A stretch of DNA of 64,000 nucleotides from Winogradskyella sediminis (GTDB lineage: Bacteria; Bacteroidota; Bacteroidia; Flavobacteriales; Flavobacteriaceae). This document shows, piece after piece, positions 4,164-22,907 of this stretch (positions within the stretch are counted from its first letter, which is position 1; the number at the start of each line of letters is the position of its first letter). The notes below the pieces were generated by a model that was not told the DNA's origin, did not search any database, and saw only the letters and a list, made by a program, of their open reading frames with translations. The position numbers were made by a program, and so were the translations under genes. The stretch spans positions 62,001 through 126,000 of the forward strand of contig NZ_QUNH01000004.1 in assembly GCF_003387355.1 (NCBI RefSeq), in the 5' to 3' direction.

Positions 4164-5117
4164 ATGTATAAATATTTGTTTGCTTTTTTATTTTCTACCT
4201 ATAGTTTTTCTCAAACGCTTATTGAGGATGCTCAAACCTATATCGCTAAAAAGGAATATGTGAAAGCGCAAAATAAAATGATTTTATTTCTAGAGTCTAA
4301 TCCCAATGATCTTGAGGCTATTGAGCTTTTGGGTGATGCGTATGGCTTCCAGAAAAAATGGGATGATGCCATTGCGCAATATCAAATCTTAAAACAAAAA
4401 TGCCCCAAAAATGCTAATTACCATTACAAATATGGTGGAGCTTTAGGAATGAAAGCGTTGAGTATTAGTAAGATTAAAGCATTAACCATAATTGGAGATG
4501 TTAAAGAGGCATTCCATAAAGCCACACAGTTAGATCCTAATCATATTGACGCGCGTTGGGCGTTGGTAGAATTGTATGTGTCACTTCCAGGTATTGTAGG
4601 TGGAAGTTATTCTAAAGCCTTAAGATATGCCGAGCAGTTAGAAGAACTGTCTAAAGTAGACGGCTATTTAGCCAAAGGTTATGTTTACGAGTATGATGAC
4701 GAACCAGAACTGGCTGAAAAGTATTACCGATTGGCTATAAAAGTAGGGGGTTCTGTCACCTGTTATGAAAAATTAACCAATTTCTACGAAGGGCAAGAGC
4801 AACCCGAAAAAGCTATTGACAACTTGGAGGAAGCTAAGGATAAACACCAACGAAATGCCATGCATTATCAAATAGGAAAAGTGTGTGCCGATTATAATAT
4901 TCAGTTAGATAAAGGCGAAAAGATGCTAATGGTGTATCTTGAAAATCATTCAGCACAAGATGGCGTGCCAAAAGAATGGGCATATTATCGTTTGGCGCAA
5001 ATCTACAAGCACAAAAATGATAAAGCGAAAGCTTTAGTTTGGATTAATAAAGCCATTTCTGGTTTACCAGATATTGATGTGTTTCAAGAAGAAAAAGCAA
5101 CTATTTCTGCACTATAA
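4164..5117 (+). CDS. Secreted/periplasmic TPR-repeat protein
   Basis: 317 residues. A short signal peptide ends at YSFSQ, followed by tetratricopeptide-like helical pairs: residues about 18-90 (EYVKAQNKMILFLESNPND, then KKWDDAIAQYQILKQKCPKN), about 115-130 (HKATQLDPNHIDARWALVEL) and repeats to the C-terminus (AKALVWINKAISGLPD). The segment VSLPGIVGGSYSKAL recalls conserved TPR proteins of Bacteroidota and Gammaproteobacteria of unknown function. TPR scaffolds mediate protein-protein contacts; no enzymatic domain is visible. The gene stands alone, divergent from the alpha-2-macroglobulin gene. Specific function unknown. Confidence 0.8.
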   Translation: MYKYLFAFLFSTYSFSQTLIEDAQTYIAKKEYVKAQNKMILFLESNPNDLEAIELLGDAYGFQKKWDDAIAQYQILKQKCPKNANYHYKYGGALGMKALSISKIKALTIIGDVKEAFHKATQLDPNHIDARWALVELYVSLPGIVGGSYSKALRYAEQLEELSKVDGYLAKGYVYEYDDEPELAEKYYRLAIKVGGSVTCYEKLTNFYEGQEQPEKAIDNLEEAKDKHQRNAMHYQIGKVCADYNIQLDKGEKMLMVYLENHSAQDGVPKEWAYYRLAQIYKHKNDKAKALVWINKAISGLPDIDVFQEEKATISAL

Positions 5118-5148
5118 TTCTTAAGTATTAATTTATTATAGCAATCAC

Positions 5149-5175
5149 CTCCAAGATTAATGGAGATAATTTTTT
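5149..5175 (+). terminator. Weak intrinsic terminator after the TPR gene
   Basis: CTCCA (5149-5153) pairs with TGGAG (5161-5165) over a 7-base loop, followed by ATAATTTTTT. The stem is short, so termination is uncertain, but the place between the TPR gene and the next operon fits. Confidence 0.35.
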
Positions 5176-5194
5176 GTTAATTATTTTTAAATTA

Positions 5195-5207
5195 ATAGTA
5201 TTACTAT
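5195..5207. promoter_or_regulatory. Candidate TetR operator at the export-operon promoter
   Basis: ATAGTA-T-TACTAT is a perfect 13-base inverted repeat abutting a near-consensus -7 box (CATATTTG, 5208-5215) and lying 27 bases upstream of the TetR start at 5234. TetR-family repressors commonly bind such palindromes in their own promoters. Binding by the 5234-5914 product is inferred. Confidence 0.45.
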
Positions 5208-5233
5208 CATATTTGCAATTAAATTATATTTAT

Positions 5234-5914
5234 ATGAAGAGTTTGCTTTCAAATTTAAAAATTTCAGTGCCTGATAAAATCTACCTTAAGGACCCTGAAT
5301 CCTCTAAGTTAGGTAAACGAATAATTGAACATGGTATACTTCTAATAGATGAAATTGGTTTCGATAGCTTCACCTTTAAGAAATTAGGAGCTAAAATTGG
5401 ATCTAACGAGAGTTCGATTTATCGTTATTTTGAGAGTAAGCATAAATTGTTATTATACTTAACATCTTGGTATTGGGCTTGGATTGAATATCAAATGGTG
5501 TTTACAACTTTTAATGTTCCAGATGCAAAAGAGAAATTGTTTAAAGCCATTGATGTGGTCACAAAAACTATTACACAAGACGATACCTTTTCGCATATCA
5601 ATGAAATTGTGTTAAATAGAATTATCATAAATGAATATTCTAAATCGTATCTAACAAAGGAGGTTGATAGCGAAAACAAAGAGGGATATTTTGTTATCTA
5701 TAAGCGTATGATTAGGCGCCTAAGTGATATGATTTTAGAAATAAACCCCGAGTATAAATTCGCTTCTAGTTTGGCTAGTACTATTGTAGAAGGTGCACTA
5801 CATCAGCATTTTTTAAAAGTGCATTTTAAGTCTATTACAGATTGTAACGATGAAATTACTCCCTCTGATTTTTTTAAGGAATTAACAATTAATGCCATTA
5901 CCAAAGTAACTTGA
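5234..5914 (+). CDS. TetR/AcrR-family transcriptional regulator
   Basis: 226 residues from the ATG at 5234. An in-frame TTG at 5174 exists but lies upstream of the putative -7 box at 5208, so the ATG is preferred. The N-terminal helix-turn-helix spans about residues 46-70 (FTFKKLGAKIGSNESSIYRYF), with the usual TetR ending YFESKHKLL. The C-terminal ligand-binding half is divergent. The stop is one base before the ABC gene at 5916, so it is the first gene of a tetR-ABC-hlyD-tolC operon and probably controls it. A palindrome at 5195-5207 is a likely self-operator. Ligand unknown. Confidence 0.85.
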   Translation: MKSLLSNLKISVPDKIYLKDPESSKLGKRIIEHGILLIDEIGFDSFTFKKLGAKIGSNESSIYRYFESKHKLLLYLTSWYWAWIEYQMVFTTFNVPDAKEKLFKAIDVVTKTITQDDTFSHINEIVLNRIIINEYSKSYLTKEVDSENKEGYFVIYKRMIRRLSDMILEINPEYKFASSLASTIVEGALHQHFLKVHFKSITDCNDEITPSDFFKELTINAITKVT

Positions 5915-17343: not shown

Positions 17344-17646
17344 TTATTCATTTTCAATTTTCTCTATCATCTCTCTGAATAAATTAAGTAAAAAGGTTAG
17401 TTTGCTAGCATCACCAGCGGCTCTAAATCTTCTATTCTGAATTTTTACTCCATACCAATCTTGTTTCCCATTTTCATTGAGAATCCATTTAATTTCTAAA
17501 TTCGCAATAGACGTATTGGAAATATCAATTTCTACATCCCAGCCCAAAGGATCATCTAAAGTGGTAATTTGAATGGCATCGCCTTTTTCCCATTCACCAT
17601 CGGCATTGTCTTGAAGCCAATTCTGTATCCATTCTAAAATTTCCAT
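17344..17646 (-). CDS. Immunity protein 53 (Imm53)-like protein
   Basis: 100 residues, cytoplasmic. The pattern LEWIQNWLQDNADGEWEKGD, then TLDDPLGWDVEIDI, and the C-terminal LLNLFREMIEKIE matches my recollection of the Imm53 family: tryptophan-rich immunity proteins found next to polymorphic toxins. No toxin gene is adjacent. It stands alone between the TetR cluster and a repeat-filled gap, so it may be an orphan immunity gene. The family call is from memory of the consensus and needs a profile search. Confidence 0.65.
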   Translation of the reverse strand: MEILEWIQNWLQDNADGEWEKGDAIQITTLDDPLGWDVEIDISNTSIANLEIKWILNENGKQDWYGVKIQNRRFRAAGDASKLTFLLNLFREMIEKIENE

Positions 17647-18132: not shown

Positions 18133-19977
18133 TTAAATCTCAGAAACAAATTTCAAAAACACTGCTTTATGCTTTTCCAAATCCATATCTGGTGATAAAG
18201 ACACACGTGCAATATAATCTTTGTCACCTTCTTTTGTGGTGCCTTGCGTTGAGGTCGCCGGAATCGTCCAATAACAGCCTTTTAACTGGCCGTAACTCAC
18301 GCAGTATTTGCTTTCGTTAGGAATTTCGGTAATCATTAAATGGATTAATCTATGATTCAAAGCACGTTTATACGTTTCTTTTTCTTCAGGTGTATTTCCT
18401 TTTGTAGGAAGATCTAATGAAAATACCGAAGGTGTAAAGCCTTGTGCTGCCAATTCTTCGGACACAAAATTGATTTTCGCTTCTGGTAAAGTATCGTGAA
18501 TAAAATTCACAAACTCACGCGTGTTTTTATAAGCCTCTGCAATACGCTGATTCATAGATGGTAATTGCTTGGCCAAAATCTCATATTGAAGCGCAGTCGC
18601 TTCGTTATCGCAAAGCGTCAAATGCAATGCTATTTTGCTCATTAAAGCATCTACTTTTGCATTTCCTACAATATAACCAGCCGTGCATTTTCCACCACTA
18701 GGGAATTTAGAACCACTAGCATAAGAAATGGTACGCATGGTAGATAATATTTCACCTTCTCCTAAAAAGTGCACATTAGGACAAAAGGTTTGATCTAATA
18801 TAAACACAGGATCAATCGCGATGTCTCCAGAAGCGGTTCTACGTTCTTCGCTCAACGCTTCTTTTAATTTTTGTAAATCCGGAACTTCAACACGTGGATT
18901 GGTTGGGATTTCTGCAATGATATAAGGAATCGCGTCCTCGTGTGCAATTTTGTCTAAAACGGTGTGGATACTTTGCACCATATCATTATCACCATCTACT
19001 GGTAAATCTACCACTTCCACATTATCTAAACAGGCAGCCACACGTCTGGCTTGGTCATTGGTGCCTCCATAACAATTTGGTGGTACCACAAATTTAATCG
19101 CTTTACCTTTATGGTGTTCTAAAGCATAGTCCACTAAGCCCATCATAATAGCATACTGCACCGACAATCCGCTAGAACCGACTAACGGCTGAGACGTTGT
19201 GCCGTTAATTTCCTTAATGGAGTTTAAAACACTTGCTTTATTGGCTTCAAAATGATGGTCTAAATTAGTAATTGCAGTATGTGCTGTTAAGGCTTTTAAA
19301 GCGACTAAACAATTTGATGGAGTCATCGCAATCGTTTCACGACGTCTCACATGCTGAATATCTGAAATATAATGATCGTTGTGACTGCCATTCACGATGA
19401 GTACACTTCCAAGGTGTGCGTGAAGATTGATATAAAAATCAATATTCACATTGTCCTCAAGATGTGAAATGTCCTCTTGCTGCGAGATAAAAACAGTACT
19501 GCCGTTAAACTCTAAAATAGCATCTGCACTATCTACCTTTATGACATCGAAATGATAACCATAAACCTGCTTGATGATTTCAGCATCGAAAAATTCTGGA
19601 AGTTCGCCTGTATATACAATTTGGGTCTTTTTGTTTTCTAATAAATTTGTTCTTAAAATAGCCAACACAGGTACCGTTTGTGACGAAAAACTAATCACGT
19701 TGTCTGCTTTAATGTCGTTTAAATTCGCAATTCCCCATTCTAGAATACAAGATAACGGATGCCCTAAACGAATATAATCGTAAGCGGTTGGTAATTCGCT
19801 TAATGCTGAAGGATCTGAATTATTGTTTTTATATAGGTTTTCAAACGCATCTAAAAACTGTGTTTTAGCTAACTTTTCGTTGTAAATATCTAAACGATGC
19901 GTGGTTAGGTTTAACCAGTCTGTTGGCATATCCTTTAGAACGTCTTTTATGTAATTTAGGGTTTTATTGTCTTGCAT
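18133..19977 (-). CDS. PLP-dependent enzyme of the Cys/Met metabolism type
   Basis: 614 residues from the ATG at 19977; a TTG at 19986 is in frame but close to the -7 box. The C-terminal two-thirds has the fold-type I PLP pattern of cystathionine gamma-synthase/beta-lyase enzymes: GSSGLSVQYAIMMGLVDYAL, PPNCYGGTNDQARR, IAEIPTNPRVEVPDL, FILDQTFCPN. The Schiff-base lysine lies in SYASGSKFPSGGK (about K424). An N-terminal extension of about 200 residues makes it longer than the 380-400 residues usual for the family. Transsulfuration or a related elimination/replacement reaction is likely; the substrate is unknown. Confidence 0.8.
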   Translation of the reverse strand: MQDNKTLNYIKDVLKDMPTDWLNLTTHRLDIYNEKLAKTQFLDAFENLYKNNNSDPSALSELPTAYDYIRLGHPLSCILEWGIANLNDIKADNVISFSSQTVPVLAILRTNLLENKKTQIVYTGELPEFFDAEIIKQVYGYHFDVIKVDSADAILEFNGSTVFISQQEDISHLEDNVNIDFYINLHAHLGSVLIVNGSHNDHYISDIQHVRRRETIAMTPSNCLVALKALTAHTAITNLDHHFEANKASVLNSIKEINGTTSQPLVGSSGLSVQYAIMMGLVDYALEHHKGKAIKFVVPPNCYGGTNDQARRVAACLDNVEVVDLPVDGDNDMVQSIHTVLDKIAHEDAIPYIIAEIPTNPRVEVPDLQKLKEALSEERRTASGDIAIDPVFILDQTFCPNVHFLGEGEILSTMRTISYASGSKFPSGGKCTAGYIVGNAKVDALMSKIALHLTLCDNEATALQYEILAKQLPSMNQRIAEAYKNTREFVNFIHDTLPEAKINFVSEELAAQGFTPSVFSLDLPTKGNTPEEKETYKRALNHRLIHLMITEIPNESKYCVSYGQLKGCYWTIPATSTQGTTKEGDKDYIARVSLSPDMDLEKHKAVFLKFVSEI

Positions 19978-19997
19978 AATTCTCAATTTTCAATATG

Positions 19998-20005
19998 CAA
20001 AAATA
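19998..20005 (-). promoter_or_regulatory. -7 box of the PLP enzyme gene
   Basis: The minus strand reads TATTTTTG, an exact TAnnTTTG match 20 bases upstream of the ATG at 19977. Confidence 0.45.
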
Positions 20006-20124
20006 TGGATTAATTGGATGGATGAAGAAGGTTTAACATGACGTTTTGATAATGGGTTTTAAAAGCTGTTTTTTCTGAGTTTCAGAGATTATAAATTCCG
20101 TTTTTAGCTAGTTAAAGTCGTTTC

Positions 20125-20574
20125 TTATTTAGTTTTTTCAGCTTTAAAAACTACATCTTTTTTAACTAATTCATTGACGTTTAATGTGGGAAGTAAAAAC
20201 TTATTAAATGGTGTGTTTTCTGTTTTGCTATGTAAAACTCCTCTAGTTGTTCCAATAGTTAACATTACTAAATGACTAATAAAACCTTTTGGTACTATTA
20301 ATTCAGTTTTTGATTCATTATAGAAACTGTTCCAAGCTTCGATGTTAATATTGAAATGACAGCCAACCGCAATGAGTAAAAAGGGTGACTTTTCTTGAAT
20401 TAAACTTGTTGAAAAAACAACTGAAATAATATTGTTATCAAAATTAATCCCAAACTTTAATCCAGCTTTTAATTCTACAATTTCACTTTCTTTATAAGAG
20501 GATTCAATAATAGCAAACTGTTCAGTTGTAATTTTTTTTAATGCAAAGCCAACTTTATTTTTTTCTTCTGCCAT
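20125..20574 (-). CDS. SecB-like chaperone of a putative toxin-antitoxin-chaperone module
   Basis: 149 residues, close to the 155 of Escherichia coli SecB, no signal peptide. The layout follows SecB: an N-terminal strand (VGFALKKITTEQFAI), central strands (VELKAGLKFGINFD, ISVVFSTSLI, FLLIAVGCHFNI), then LIVPKGFISHLVMLTIGTTR with a following LLPTLNV. This parallels the SecB C-terminal helix and the P-x-x-x-L-x-P-V-N-F segment. Its start overlaps the antitoxin stop by one base (TAATG), indicating translational coupling. In known TAC systems such a SecB-like protein folds and protects the antitoxin. The SecB call is by eye. Confidence 0.7.
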   Translation of the reverse strand: MAEEKNKVGFALKKITTEQFAIIESSYKESEIVELKAGLKFGINFDNNIISVVFSTSLIQEKSPFLLIAVGCHFNINIEAWNSFYNESKTELIVPKGFISHLVMLTIGTTRGVLHSKTENTPFNKFLLPTLNVNELVKKDVVFKAEKTK

Positions 20575-21050
20575 TATGCAACTAATTTTAGATAATAATC
20601 TGGTTCATTCTCATAAGAATATGCGCCGAACAATTCTTCATAATTTGAAAGACTTGATTCTACGTTTACTGATTCATCAGATTTATTGTATTGTTTATAT
20701 TCCTCAACTTGAACATGAACCGTTGTTTGAAATTCGGGAACCTCAATTAAATTAATATTTAAAATTTGTTGAATTTTAGTGATAGTTTCTAATTGTAAGT
20801 TTTCTGTTCCTTTCAAAACTTTGTTAACGTACTGTGGTGAACAACCTAATGCTTGTGCCAACTCTTTTTGAGTTTTTGGAAAAGTATTAGAAGTTTTATT
20901 TGTTTTAATTGCAGACATTACCTTTACAGCTATTGCAAAAGAAATATCAAGCCAAGCTTTATTCTCTTTTCTGTACTTTGCTCTTTCAGCCCAAGTATTG
21001 TCTTGTTTTGAAGATTCTAGAAGTCTGTTTTTTATGTTTTTAATACTCAT
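20574..21050 (-). CDS. XRE-family antitoxin (HigA-like) with C-terminal extension
   Basis: 158 residues. The helix-turn-helix lies at about 63-105 (TQKELAQALGCSPQYVNKVLKGTENLQLETITKIQQIL), a Cro/C1-type domain. The last about 50 residues are low in predicted structure and aromatic-rich (EELFGAYSYENEPDYYLKLVA), resembling the chaperone-addiction tails of TAC antitoxins. It lies 24 bases after the putative toxin and is translationally coupled to the SecB-like gene. It probably neutralises the toxin and represses the operon. Confidence 0.8.
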   Translation of the reverse strand: MSIKNIKNRLLESSKQDNTWAERAKYRKENKAWLDISFAIAVKVMSAIKTNKTSNTFPKTQKELAQALGCSPQYVNKVLKGTENLQLETITKIQQILNINLIEVPEFQTTVHVQVEEYKQYNKSDESVNVESSLSNYEELFGAYSYENEPDYYLKLVA

Positions 21051-21074
21051 TAGTATTTGTTTGGTTGATTTAAT

Positions 21075-21626
21075 TCATTTCAATTCAACGAAATCTAAAT
21101 TTTCGTCTTCTCCATTTTGTAGATAATTGCGAGTGAATTCTAACTTTTCTAATTCTAATAGTAAATGGGGTTTTTCATTCATTGTTGCTGTAAGTTTTAT
21201 TGCTCCACCACAAATAACAAATAAGTTAGCTTCAATTCTTATGGCATATATACGTAGCCAACTTCGTCTTTTTAACCCTTTAGCTTTGTCTTTTTCAAAG
21301 TTTTCTTCAATAATCCCTTTTGATAAGGGTTCAAATAATGTAGATAATGTTTCAAGTCTTTCAGTTTTTCCGGTTTCAGCTATATAAAGTAATTCTTCTT
21401 CAAAAAGACTAGCATCTTCTCGGGTTTTAATAATTGCTTCTTCAATAGTTATGCCCTTCCAAAATTCATTGTCTAAGTCTTCTTTGTTTTTTTCGAAAAA
21501 CTCTCTTAAGTAGACAGGATCGTTCCATAATTCAAAACATTTAGCAAATTCATTTAAGTTTTCAGTTTCATATTGAACCGAAAATAAACTTTCTTTTACT
21601 ATTACAAATGTATTAATTATTTTCAT
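21075..21626 (-). CDS. Putative toxin of the toxin-antitoxin-chaperone module
   Basis: 183 residues, cytoplasmic. I recognise a recurring Bacteroidota protein type found before XRE regulators, but no named family. The N-terminal half is acidic and helical (FAKCFELWNDPVYLREFFEKN). The C-terminal half has a conserved-looking core, SWLRIYAIRIEANLFVICGG followed by AIKLTATM, ending in LLELEKLEFTRNYL, which could be a HigB/RelE-like beta-sheet. Toxin activity is inferred only from position: first gene of a toxin-antitoxin-chaperone order. A nucleotidyl- or RNA-targeting role is untested. Confidence 0.6.
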   Translation of the reverse strand: MKIINTFVIVKESLFSVQYETENLNEFAKCFELWNDPVYLREFFEKNKEDLDNEFWKGITIEEAIIKTREDASLFEEELLYIAETGKTERLETLSTLFEPLSKGIIEENFEKDKAKGLKRRSWLRIYAIRIEANLFVICGGAIKLTATMNEKPHLLLELEKLEFTRNYLQNGEDENLDFVELK

Positions 21627-21655
21627 TAAATCAACCTGTGAGTTTATTTTTTTGA

Positions 21656-21663
21656 CAAATTTA
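21656..21663 (-). promoter_or_regulatory. Candidate -7 box of the TAC operon
   Basis: The minus strand reads TAAATTTG, an exact TAnnTTTG match, 30 bases upstream of the putative toxin start at 21626. No good -33 TTG was found. Confidence 0.4.
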
Positions 21664-21906
21664 ACACGATTTCCTTATTATAAGCTAATTGTTTATTTAA
21701 AAAGTGTAACAAGATATTAACAATTTTATATTTTTACTACTCAATTTGTAATTGAAATTCAGCTTATTACTGATGTTAATGGTTATAGATGTTATGTGTT
21801 TTTCAATTCATTTTCGGATATAAATGCTTTATGACTATTAAAATCTACAAAATCAAAAGTAGAAAATCTATCGATAATAGGATAAAATTCTAAACCAATC
21901 AAAACC

Positions 21907-22350
21907 CTATTCCCCAGAACCAAAAACCGTCTGCCAAACCAAAACAAACTTACTCCTAATCTTATTTGAATTCGATACCACAAAAGCAAAACCCATAGTG
22001 GTCACTAAAGCAATAAACGCAAGTGCGCCAAGTGCACCTCCATAGCCATCAAAGACATGGCTTTTCGTAATGTAAATCCCAGTAAATAGTGCTCCTGCTA
22101 TGGCAAGCAAGGTGTAACTTTTCAAGGTTTTAGCAGAGACCATCCCAATAAAAGAGGTGCCAACAAATACAATAGGGAGGTGTTCGGTTAAATAGCCATT
22201 GAGTACGTTAGGAAAGGCATAAAAAAACAGACCAACTATTAGCGATAGTAACGCAGAGGCTTTTACAGCGCCAAAGCGTAAGTGCTCGCTAACAAAGTGG
22301 GTGATTGTGGCGCCTAAGATTCCGGTGATGATGAGGATGAATGTATTCAT
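21907..22350 (-). CDS. Membrane protein, second of a paired set
   Basis: 147 residues, almost entirely hydrophobic with about four or five membrane segments. The central motif VGTSFIGMVSAKT and the later GYGGALGALAFIAL have counterparts in the preceding gene's product, so the two proteins share ancestry. Its start overlaps the stop of that gene by four bases (ATGA), implying coupled translation and probably a heteromeric complex. I do not recognise the family; a transporter is plausible. The C-terminus (VLVWQTVFGSGE) is polar. The 280 bases to the TAC module hold no gene I can support. Confidence 0.7.
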   Translation of the reverse strand: MNTFILIITGILGATITHFVSEHLRFGAVKASALLSLIVGLFFYAFPNVLNGYLTEHLPIVFVGTSFIGMVSAKTLKSYTLLAIAGALFTGIYITKSHVFDGYGGALGALAFIALVTTMGFAFVVSNSNKIRSKFVLVWQTVFGSGE

Positions 22351-22907
22351 ACTAATAACGCATACATTAAAGTTGCTGTGATGACACCTGCAAATGCCAT
22401 GGTGCCTAATTTTCCGCCAACACCAAGAAATAAGTTTTTAGACATCATAAAAAACAGACCTGCAAGCGTGCCTGCAGCAAGCGCAAAACCAAGGGAAGGA
22501 CTGGTTTCTGCACTAGACATACCAACAAAAGCGCCACAATAAATGCTTGCTGGTAGTTGTTGTAAGTAGTTCGATTTTTTATTTAAAGATGGTAAAAATG
22601 ACGCTACTGTCCCAACAATGCCCATAGCTAAAATGGGGCCTAAACCACCAGGAACATTTAAGAGGTAACACAATACGGCTCCGATTGGCACCCAAATGAC
22701 GACGGATATTTTTTCGTAGGCGTAATCTTCGTGGTGTAAATCTAAGTAGCGATAGCCAAAAACGATGGTAAGTATAATAACAAGTGCGGCTATAATTATG
22801 GCTGCGTTGGTTTCGTAATGCGCGTTTACAATCATGGTTAAAAAGGTAACCTGTGTAAATAAAACAGTAGCGACCATTAAAAATCGAATGGCTTTATGTT
22901 TTCTCAT
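22347..22907 (-). CDS. Membrane protein, first of a paired set
   Basis: 186 residues with about six hydrophobic segments. The motif YCGAFVGMSSAETS and the later GVGGKLGTMAFAGV echo VGTSFIGMVSAKT and GYGGALGALAFIAL in the overlapping downstream gene. Two small, mutually similar, translationally coupled membrane proteins usually form one carrier or channel. The family is unknown to me. The 246 bases upstream, shared with the divergent MFS gene, hold no clear promoter for this strand. Confidence 0.7.
   Translation of the reverse strand: MRKHKAIRFLMVATVLFTQVTFLTMIVNAHYETNAAIIIAALVIILTIVFGYRYLDLHHEDYAYEKISVVIWVPIGAVLCYLLNVPGGLGPILAMGIVGTVASFLPSLNKKSNYLQQLPASIYCGAFVGMSSAETSPSLGFALAAGTLAGLFFMMSKNLFLGVGGKLGTMAFAGVITATLMYALLV

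Follow-up and report, generated by a model that had tools for sequence, protein, structure and literature searches.

A probable toxin-antitoxin-chaperone module with a SecB-fold chaperone in Winogradskyella sediminis

The window analysed here, a 64,000-nucleotide stretch of the genome of the flavobacterium W. sediminis, carries three co-directional genes on the minus strand, in the order T (toxin), A (antitoxin) and C (chaperone) (Table 1). A first-pass annotation made from the sequence alone had proposed this arrangement, namely a toxin candidate, an XRE-type antitoxin and a SecB-like protein, and the open reading frames bear it out, as do the HTH_3 match of A and the overlap of its stop codon with the start codon of C. 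Neither C nor T matches a Pfam or NCBIfam family at an E-value of 5, and a PHROGs search offered no route to SecB or HigB. The host genome has no match to the SecB family PF02556 at an E-value of 10.

Table 1. Features of the module; positions are those of the window.
Feature	Position	Strand	Basis or remark
T, toxin gene, 183 aa	21075..21626	minus	predicted RelE/HigB fold, AlphaFold model
A, XRE-type antitoxin, 158 aa	20574..21050	minus	PF01381 HTH_3, E 1.5e-8
C, chaperone with predicted SecB fold, 149 aa	20125..20574	minus	AlphaFold, Foldseek and Z scores
First ~20 residues of A, probable toxin-specificity segment	20991..21050	minus	exchange with T, covariation
C-terminal tail of A, residues 107-158, probable chaperone-addiction segment	20577..20732	minus	ends LVA (ssrA-like)
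Overlap of A stop and C start	20574..20576	minus	minus strand reads TAATG
Conserved T leader, TAAATTTG box and imperfect inverted repeat	21627..21665	minus	13 upstream regions aligned

The leader of T carries what we take to be the consensus box TAAATTTG, present ahead of the toxin gene in 7 of the 13 upstream regions aligned, and, before the ATG, an inverted repeat that is imperfect and in relatives reads AACCT..AGGTT. From their sequence and position the two are a possible promoter and operator. The same genome holds a second complete module (L002), with a C 55% identical to that of the window, followed by HTH/DUF6922 and AbiEii genes. A protein 99% identical to C is encoded on a W. pacifica contig.

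The AlphaFold model of C, built with 78 sequences, has a pLDDT of 92.7. The best Foldseek matches, both with probability 1.00, are E. coli SecB (PDB code 1qyn, E 2.1e-4) and the M. tuberculosis TAC chaperone in complex with its antitoxin peptide (5mtw, E 7.3e-4). Superposition with VIA-align gives a Z score of 10.1 and an RMSD of 3.2 Å over 128 residues for E. coli SecB (1ozb), and 8.4 and 3.3 Å over 123 residues for M. tuberculosis SecB-TA (5mtw). Two streptococcal proteins of unassigned function score close to SecB-TA (2o2a, Z 8.7; 2hng, Z 8.3); together with SecB entries they account for every row above Z 5.1, where the first unrelated protein appears, and apart from these two no other fold has a comparable score in the structure-search lists. 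The SecB-like call of the first-pass annotation had been drawn from one short segment and the overall strand order; the segment is weak evidence in itself, and the call survives on the predicted fold. Profile comparison, which had been proposed alongside structure prediction as a check, found no likeness: a profile search of PDB sequences detects no similarity of C to SecB, and hhalign of the C profile against the single E. coli SecB sequence returns a probability below 1%. C is therefore best described as a protein of predicted SecB fold that is not a member of PF02556 by profile (no Pfam match at E 5). As C and T match no Pfam or NCBIfam family at E 5, the claim of homology stands on the predicted folds.

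For T the model (64 sequences, pLDDT 90.6) has the BECR fold of the RelE/HigB superfamily. The Foldseek result is weak, with S. pneumoniae HigB (6af4) at E 0.089. VIA-align aligns T with the same structure at Z 9.5 (3.2 Å, 114 residues) and with the M. tuberculosis TAC toxin HigB1 (7awk) at Z 8.2 (3.8 Å, 112 residues); the three HigB structures score 9.5, 9.2 and 8.2, and RelE entries 5.9-6.1. A best Z of 7-8 is typical of models without a clear match and the value of 9.5 is only slightly higher, and the argument is therefore carried by how uniform the list is. Its first 26 rows have toxins in their titles, except for Cami1 (two rows) and 7etr, a complex whose title names no function; the next protein after the toxins is TrmO at Z 3.6, and the structure-search lists hold no other fold with a comparable score, although for C and T alike an absence from these lists is no proof. 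Curated HigB and RelE profiles in Pfam and NCBIfam give no match to T at E 5, nor does a profile search of PDB sequences detect similarity to HigB.

Among 64 toxins Arg125, Tyr127 and Lys144 are invariant, position 114 is lysine in 62, and Arg125 and Lys144 lie 19 residues apart in 60. In the M. tuberculosis TAC toxin Arg68, Arg77 and Lys95 are reported as possible counterparts of RelE Lys54, Arg61 and Arg81 (PMC9098466). Lys114, Arg125 and Lys144 of T follow the order of that trio with roughly similar spacing and may be its equivalents. T is probably a RelE/HigB-fold ribonuclease that cuts mRNA on the ribosome.

How widely is the arrangement kept? A scan of contigs with C found 134 relatives, the best 80 of which were kept as loci. 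In 70 of these 80 both the A and T families lie upstream of C, which makes a chance order untenable; A alone is present in four and neither gene in six, two of which start at a contig edge (L053 and L075) while the other four are from Chlorobium. Within the same 80 loci the A and C genes overlap at 59 of 74 junctions, 43 times by a single base (38 TAATG, 5 TGATG). T is broken or a remnant in L023, L056 and L096, where the frames of A and C are intact; L056 is counted among the 70 although its T is in pieces. The family alignments omit some of the 80 loci, being near-copies or having broken or edge-cut genes. T, A and C thus occur together across Bacteroidota and in one member each of Ignavibacteriota and Chlorobiota, and this co-occurrence, with the predicted SecB fold, upholds the first-pass reading of a TAC module.

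The module belongs to a large Bacteroidota family and its distribution is patchy. The C profile matches 6 of 60 genomes of the genus, two of them weakly; in the family C has a match in 32 of 397, 13 at E below 1e-40, leaving 365 without one; in the order a single-sequence search with C matches 13 of 395, some weak or doubtful (L014, L015). One relative is carried by a Persicobacter megaplasmid, among genes that have no annotation. A contig from a viral collection (L231:2599-5426) carries a relaxase-like gene, a T-like frame and a C relative, with scant room for A between them. A search of phage records for the module returned nothing convincing, the one match being weak (E 0.2). In the four Chlorobium loci (L076, L078, L085 and L088, about positions 4980-5450) the SecB-like gene lies near a murB-like gene, with neither T nor A; in an unrooted tree these proteins group with the TAC chaperones of L068 and L089 (support 95/81), and the gene is possibly a TAC chaperone turned to housekeeping, or the reverse. 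A distant three-gene group from the same bacterial order (L010-L013) includes an HTH protein and a SecB-like third protein with 17-22% identity to C.

The C-terminal tail of A was followed in a survey centred on the toxin. In all 23 modules with a separate C the tail has 49-79 residues, and in the seven with no C nearby it has 4, 11, 12, 15, 17, 35 and 42. At a 40-residue cut Fisher's test gives p 1.2e-5, an optimistic value as the sequences are related and the T profile was made from chaperone-linked toxins. Absence here means no C within a flank of about 1.5 kb, and is less certain for L216 and L221, near a contig edge. The survey keeps the near-identical loci L185-L187 and L194-L195, and omits overlapping or same-genome copies (L204, L205, L228, L229 and L230), an antitoxin-chaperone fusion (L226) and seven loci below the T threshold (L197-L203), all of which have a C match and antitoxin frames of 127-139 residues. 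That chaperone-less relatives have no long tail is what would be expected if the tail creates the need of A for a chaperone.

Individual loci add detail. In L188 the reading frame of the A body passes straight on into the final residues of C; the tail and the bulk of C are lost, so that this is a deletion derivative. L192 has an A of only 113 residues and no C. In L226 (920-2677) A and C form one frame of 291 residues, and the adjoining toxin gene is in two pieces. One genome has three tandem toxin copies (L223, L228 and L230, G1010:C1), the antitoxins seen being tail-less; no chaperone was found near them.

The first-pass annotation had also described the tail as aromatic. The tail itself is real, but its aromatic content is not out of the ordinary: Phe, Trp and Tyr make up 10.8% of the last 50 residues against 10.4% in random flavobacterial frames, and only beside the body of A does the tail look aromatic. 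With the composition average by this control, the aromatic-tail argument was dropped. The C-terminus of A does carry a motif. Alanine is the last residue in 41 of 67 antitoxins and [AVLI]A the last two in 32, with 35 ending otherwise; the same two-residue ending is seen in 1 of 111 random frames and 4 of 111 neighbours, and in none of the 64 toxins or 78 chaperones. The tmRNA tag of the host genome is GENNYALAA, and two antitoxins end NYALAA.

Other parts of A are tied to T. Modules L002 and L031 are nearly identical in C (97%), the tail (97%) and the body of A (90%), whereas their toxins share 40% identity. A DNA identity of 95% begins at codon 20 of A and continues past the end of C, and another segment, ending about 20 bases into T, is 91% identical between the two and 92% identical over 308 bases with L030. 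The toxin and the N-terminal ~20 residues of A thus diverge jointly between otherwise near-identical modules (L002:438-1498 compared with L030, L031 and L032). Since the two have been exchanged together, the N-terminus of A probably sets toxin specificity, and the comparison suggests that toxin and N-terminus can be swapped as one cassette that leaves the tail and the chaperone in place.

Covariation among 57 modules (five near-copies having been removed from 62) is in keeping with this division. By partial Mantel test, tail similarity tracks C once T is accounted for (0.314, a value reached in 0 of 999 permutations), but it does not track T once C is accounted for (-0.008, 562 of 999). For residues 1-24 of A the tie to T given C is 0.544 (0 of 999) and that to C given T is weak (0.118, 28 of 999); for residues 25-106 the values are 0.526 (0 of 999) with T and 0.239 (1 of 999) with C. 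Raw rank correlations with C are 0.28 for the tail and 0.36-0.39 for other parts of A, those with T 0.10-0.18 for the tail and 0.51-0.60 elsewhere. The tail stands out for its lack of a tie to T, not for a stronger tie to C. Coupling does not decay over DNA distance, as the tail correlates equally with the near and far halves of C (0.28 and 0.28) and the N-terminus of A with the far and near halves of T at 0.58 and 0.52. Taken with the survey and the deletion derivative, these associations, which speak of co-occurrence and not of binding, point indirectly to contact between tail and chaperone and make the tail a probable chaperone-addiction segment.

The surroundings of the module are rich in defence genes. 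It is flanked by a pair of small membrane-protein genes (21907-22907) and a gene for a 617-residue protein (18133-19986), and the gap between the 147-residue membrane-protein gene and the 617-residue gene (18133-22350) is a slot for variable cargo in Winogradskyella (L143-L155). The survey covers 14 loci with both flanks, the window and 13 others; one further locus (L156) has a single flank. Four slots are empty (171-226 bp), two contain this TAC and two a Fic gene, one of which (L143) matches SoFic with E 3.5e-122. Single slots hold a NACHT gene, with a Pfam match and no PADLOC match, an M78 peptidase with DUF4411, a reverse transcriptase that matches Drt8 with E 1.7e-133, and a cupin. The remaining two carry genes of no known function (L148, 170 residues; L150, 159 residues), which are candidates for new defence genes; with the cupin locus (L154) they make three genomes whose cargo has no recognisable defence function.

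An Imm53 immunity gene lies at 17344-17646 (E 4.6e-26), and 12 of the 13 sister loci have one close to the slot; it is separated from the 617-residue gene by five others in L147 and L148. In L143 (1633-6661) part of the membrane-gene pair at the edge of the slot occurs twice, and the copies stand about 3.5 kb apart.

Beyond the genus, type I restriction hsdS genes make up 15 of the 111 nearest neighbours of relatives against at most 1 of 111 controls, among the families listed; the control neighbours themselves include defence genes (a HaeIII-type enzyme, methylases). The neighbours, taken as the nearest frame of at least 120 residues on each side with frames above 900 residues skipped, come from 74 of the best 80 loci, the four Chlorobium loci, L057 and L075 being left out. 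In 11 of 21 loci inspected an hsdS-like frame ends 27-55 bp upstream of T.

By its architecture alone the module is almost certainly a TAC. The fuller reading, in which a chaperone-protected antitoxin is lost on infection, the toxin is released and the infection is aborted, we consider likely, though less so than the architecture, since it takes in the phage part and since the raw tie of the tail to C does not exceed that of other parts of A. It builds on computed features, namely the predicted folds, the conserved order, the association of tail and chaperone, the C-terminal motif and the defence context; from these we infer ribonuclease activity, a chaperone tetramer, turnover by ClpXP, a phage trigger and autoregulation. 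A would repress the operon through its HTH domain and neutralise T, with specificity in roughly the first 20 residues, while its C-terminal tail of about 50 residues would create the dependence on C. A tetramer of the SecB-like C may bind the tail and mask the ssrA-like LVA end, so keeping A safe from ClpXP. Once C is occupied, on the model of CmdTAC and HigBAC most likely by a structural protein of a phage, A would be degraded, and T, probably cleaving mRNA at the ribosome, would halt translation and abort the infection. A role in phage defence, taken by itself, is likely but favoured with somewhat less assurance; it draws on the wealth of defence genes in the slot and among the neighbours, and on the TACs tested in E. 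coli, which detect phage proteins by way of the chaperone (PMC9519451, PMC11618068, PMC11980606).

Might the three genes instead be a working TAC that serves stress response or the stabilisation of DNA, as a selfish addiction module? Several stresses are reported to induce the TAC of M. tuberculosis at the level of transcription (PMC5105189), and patchy presence in genus (6 of 60) and family (32 of 397), a relative on a megaplasmid and another beside a relaxase-like gene would all suit such a role. The same slot, however, carries the Drt8 and SoFic matches in other genomes of the genus, hsdS genes adjoin many relatives, and phage defence is reported for those TACs that have been tried in E. 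coli (PMC9519451, PMC11618068); we therefore judge this role rather unlikely, though the strongest of the alternatives. It is less probable still, and a distinctly poor bet, that the link between tail and chaperone is a by-product of linkage and shared ancestry and that the tail has no chaperone role. Such a by-product could arise since the tail adjoins C in the DNA and related sequences are not independent, and it would fit the modest partial coupling (0.314) and a raw coupling to C (0.28) below that of other parts of A (0.36-0.39). Coupling by linkage should fade with distance, but it is the same for both halves of C and hardly differs for the halves of T, and a missing chaperone goes with a short or absent tail, the deletion derivative L188 included.

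A toxin-antitoxin pair that merely sits beside an unrelated SecB-like export chaperone is disfavoured and has very little probability. The host genome does lack a PF02556 match, leaving room for such a factor, and the four Chlorobium relatives indicate that members of this family can do without a toxin pair. On the other side, T and A stand upstream of C in 70 of the best 80 loci, A and C mostly overlap, tail length follows the presence of C, and an A-C fusion exists; nor can C be a core factor of export when 365 of the family's 397 genomes have no match to it. We return then to the chaperone-addicted TAC as the preferred reading.

The variants of the family are a plain pair with a short tail or none, a pair with a long tail and a chaperone, and an antitoxin-chaperone fusion. 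They prompt the tentative idea, to which we give rather less than an even chance, that an ordinary toxin-antitoxin pair can acquire or shed chaperone addiction as a plug-in sensor of infection. Were it correct, tail and chaperone would diversify as the competing phage proteins change, and each module would sense particular phage structural proteins. The family, whose toxin and chaperone are unnamed by Pfam and NCBIfam, supplies natural tests in the joint loss of chaperone and tail, the exchange of toxin and N-terminus, and the fusion. It makes testable which part of the antitoxin serves toxin specificity and which chaperone dependence, and whether a phage protein competes with the tail.

In the literature searched the TACs studied come from mycobacteria and proteobacteria, while the module described here represents a Bacteroidota family, new but of a known kind. 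No account of the family was recognised among papers on TACs or SecB-like chaperones in Bacteroidota within that search, whose scope lay outside preprints and most subscription papers. Known TACs are generally built on HigBA, HicAB or MqsRA pairs, with tails that vary in length and sequence (PMC5105189); chaperone addiction is treated structurally in PMC6377645. TA-associated SecBs are reported outside proteobacteria (PMC4257090), and a large SecB tree includes nine from Bacteroidetes (PMC4361572). The PADLOC candidate PDC-M64 (B and C), a term not found in the literature searched, has models that match C (8.8e-12), A (2.2e-12) and T (8.1e-5); the matches are distant, come with no cut-off and are split, A and C scoring best with M64C and T with M64B only.

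HigBAC of M. tuberculosis (Rv1955-Rv1956-Rv1957) shares the order of toxin, HTH antitoxin with a C-terminal extension and SecB-fold chaperone, and resembles the module in the predicted folds of toxin (Z 8.2, 7awk) and chaperone (Z 8.4, 5mtw). It differs in that T and C have no detectable sequence similarity to it (Pfam, NCBIfam and PDB profile searches) and in that T, with 183 residues, has extra helices in the model compared with the 120 residues of 7awk. CmdTAC of E. coli ECOR22 follows the same three-gene logic with a SecB-like C. The LAA end of CmdA is reported to be a ClpXP recognition sequence (PMC11618068), and many antitoxins of the present family end LVA or LAA; the toxin CmdT, however, is an mRNA ADP-ribosyltransferase, unlike T with its predicted RelE/HigB fold. 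E. coli HigBAC and MqsRAC also combine toxin, antitoxin and SecB-like chaperone, a likeness of description. The lambda major tail protein is reported to activate HigBAC (PMC11980606), and MqsRAC to defend against phage (PMC9519451); by analogy with these phage-defence TACs, the W. sediminis module may act in the same way.
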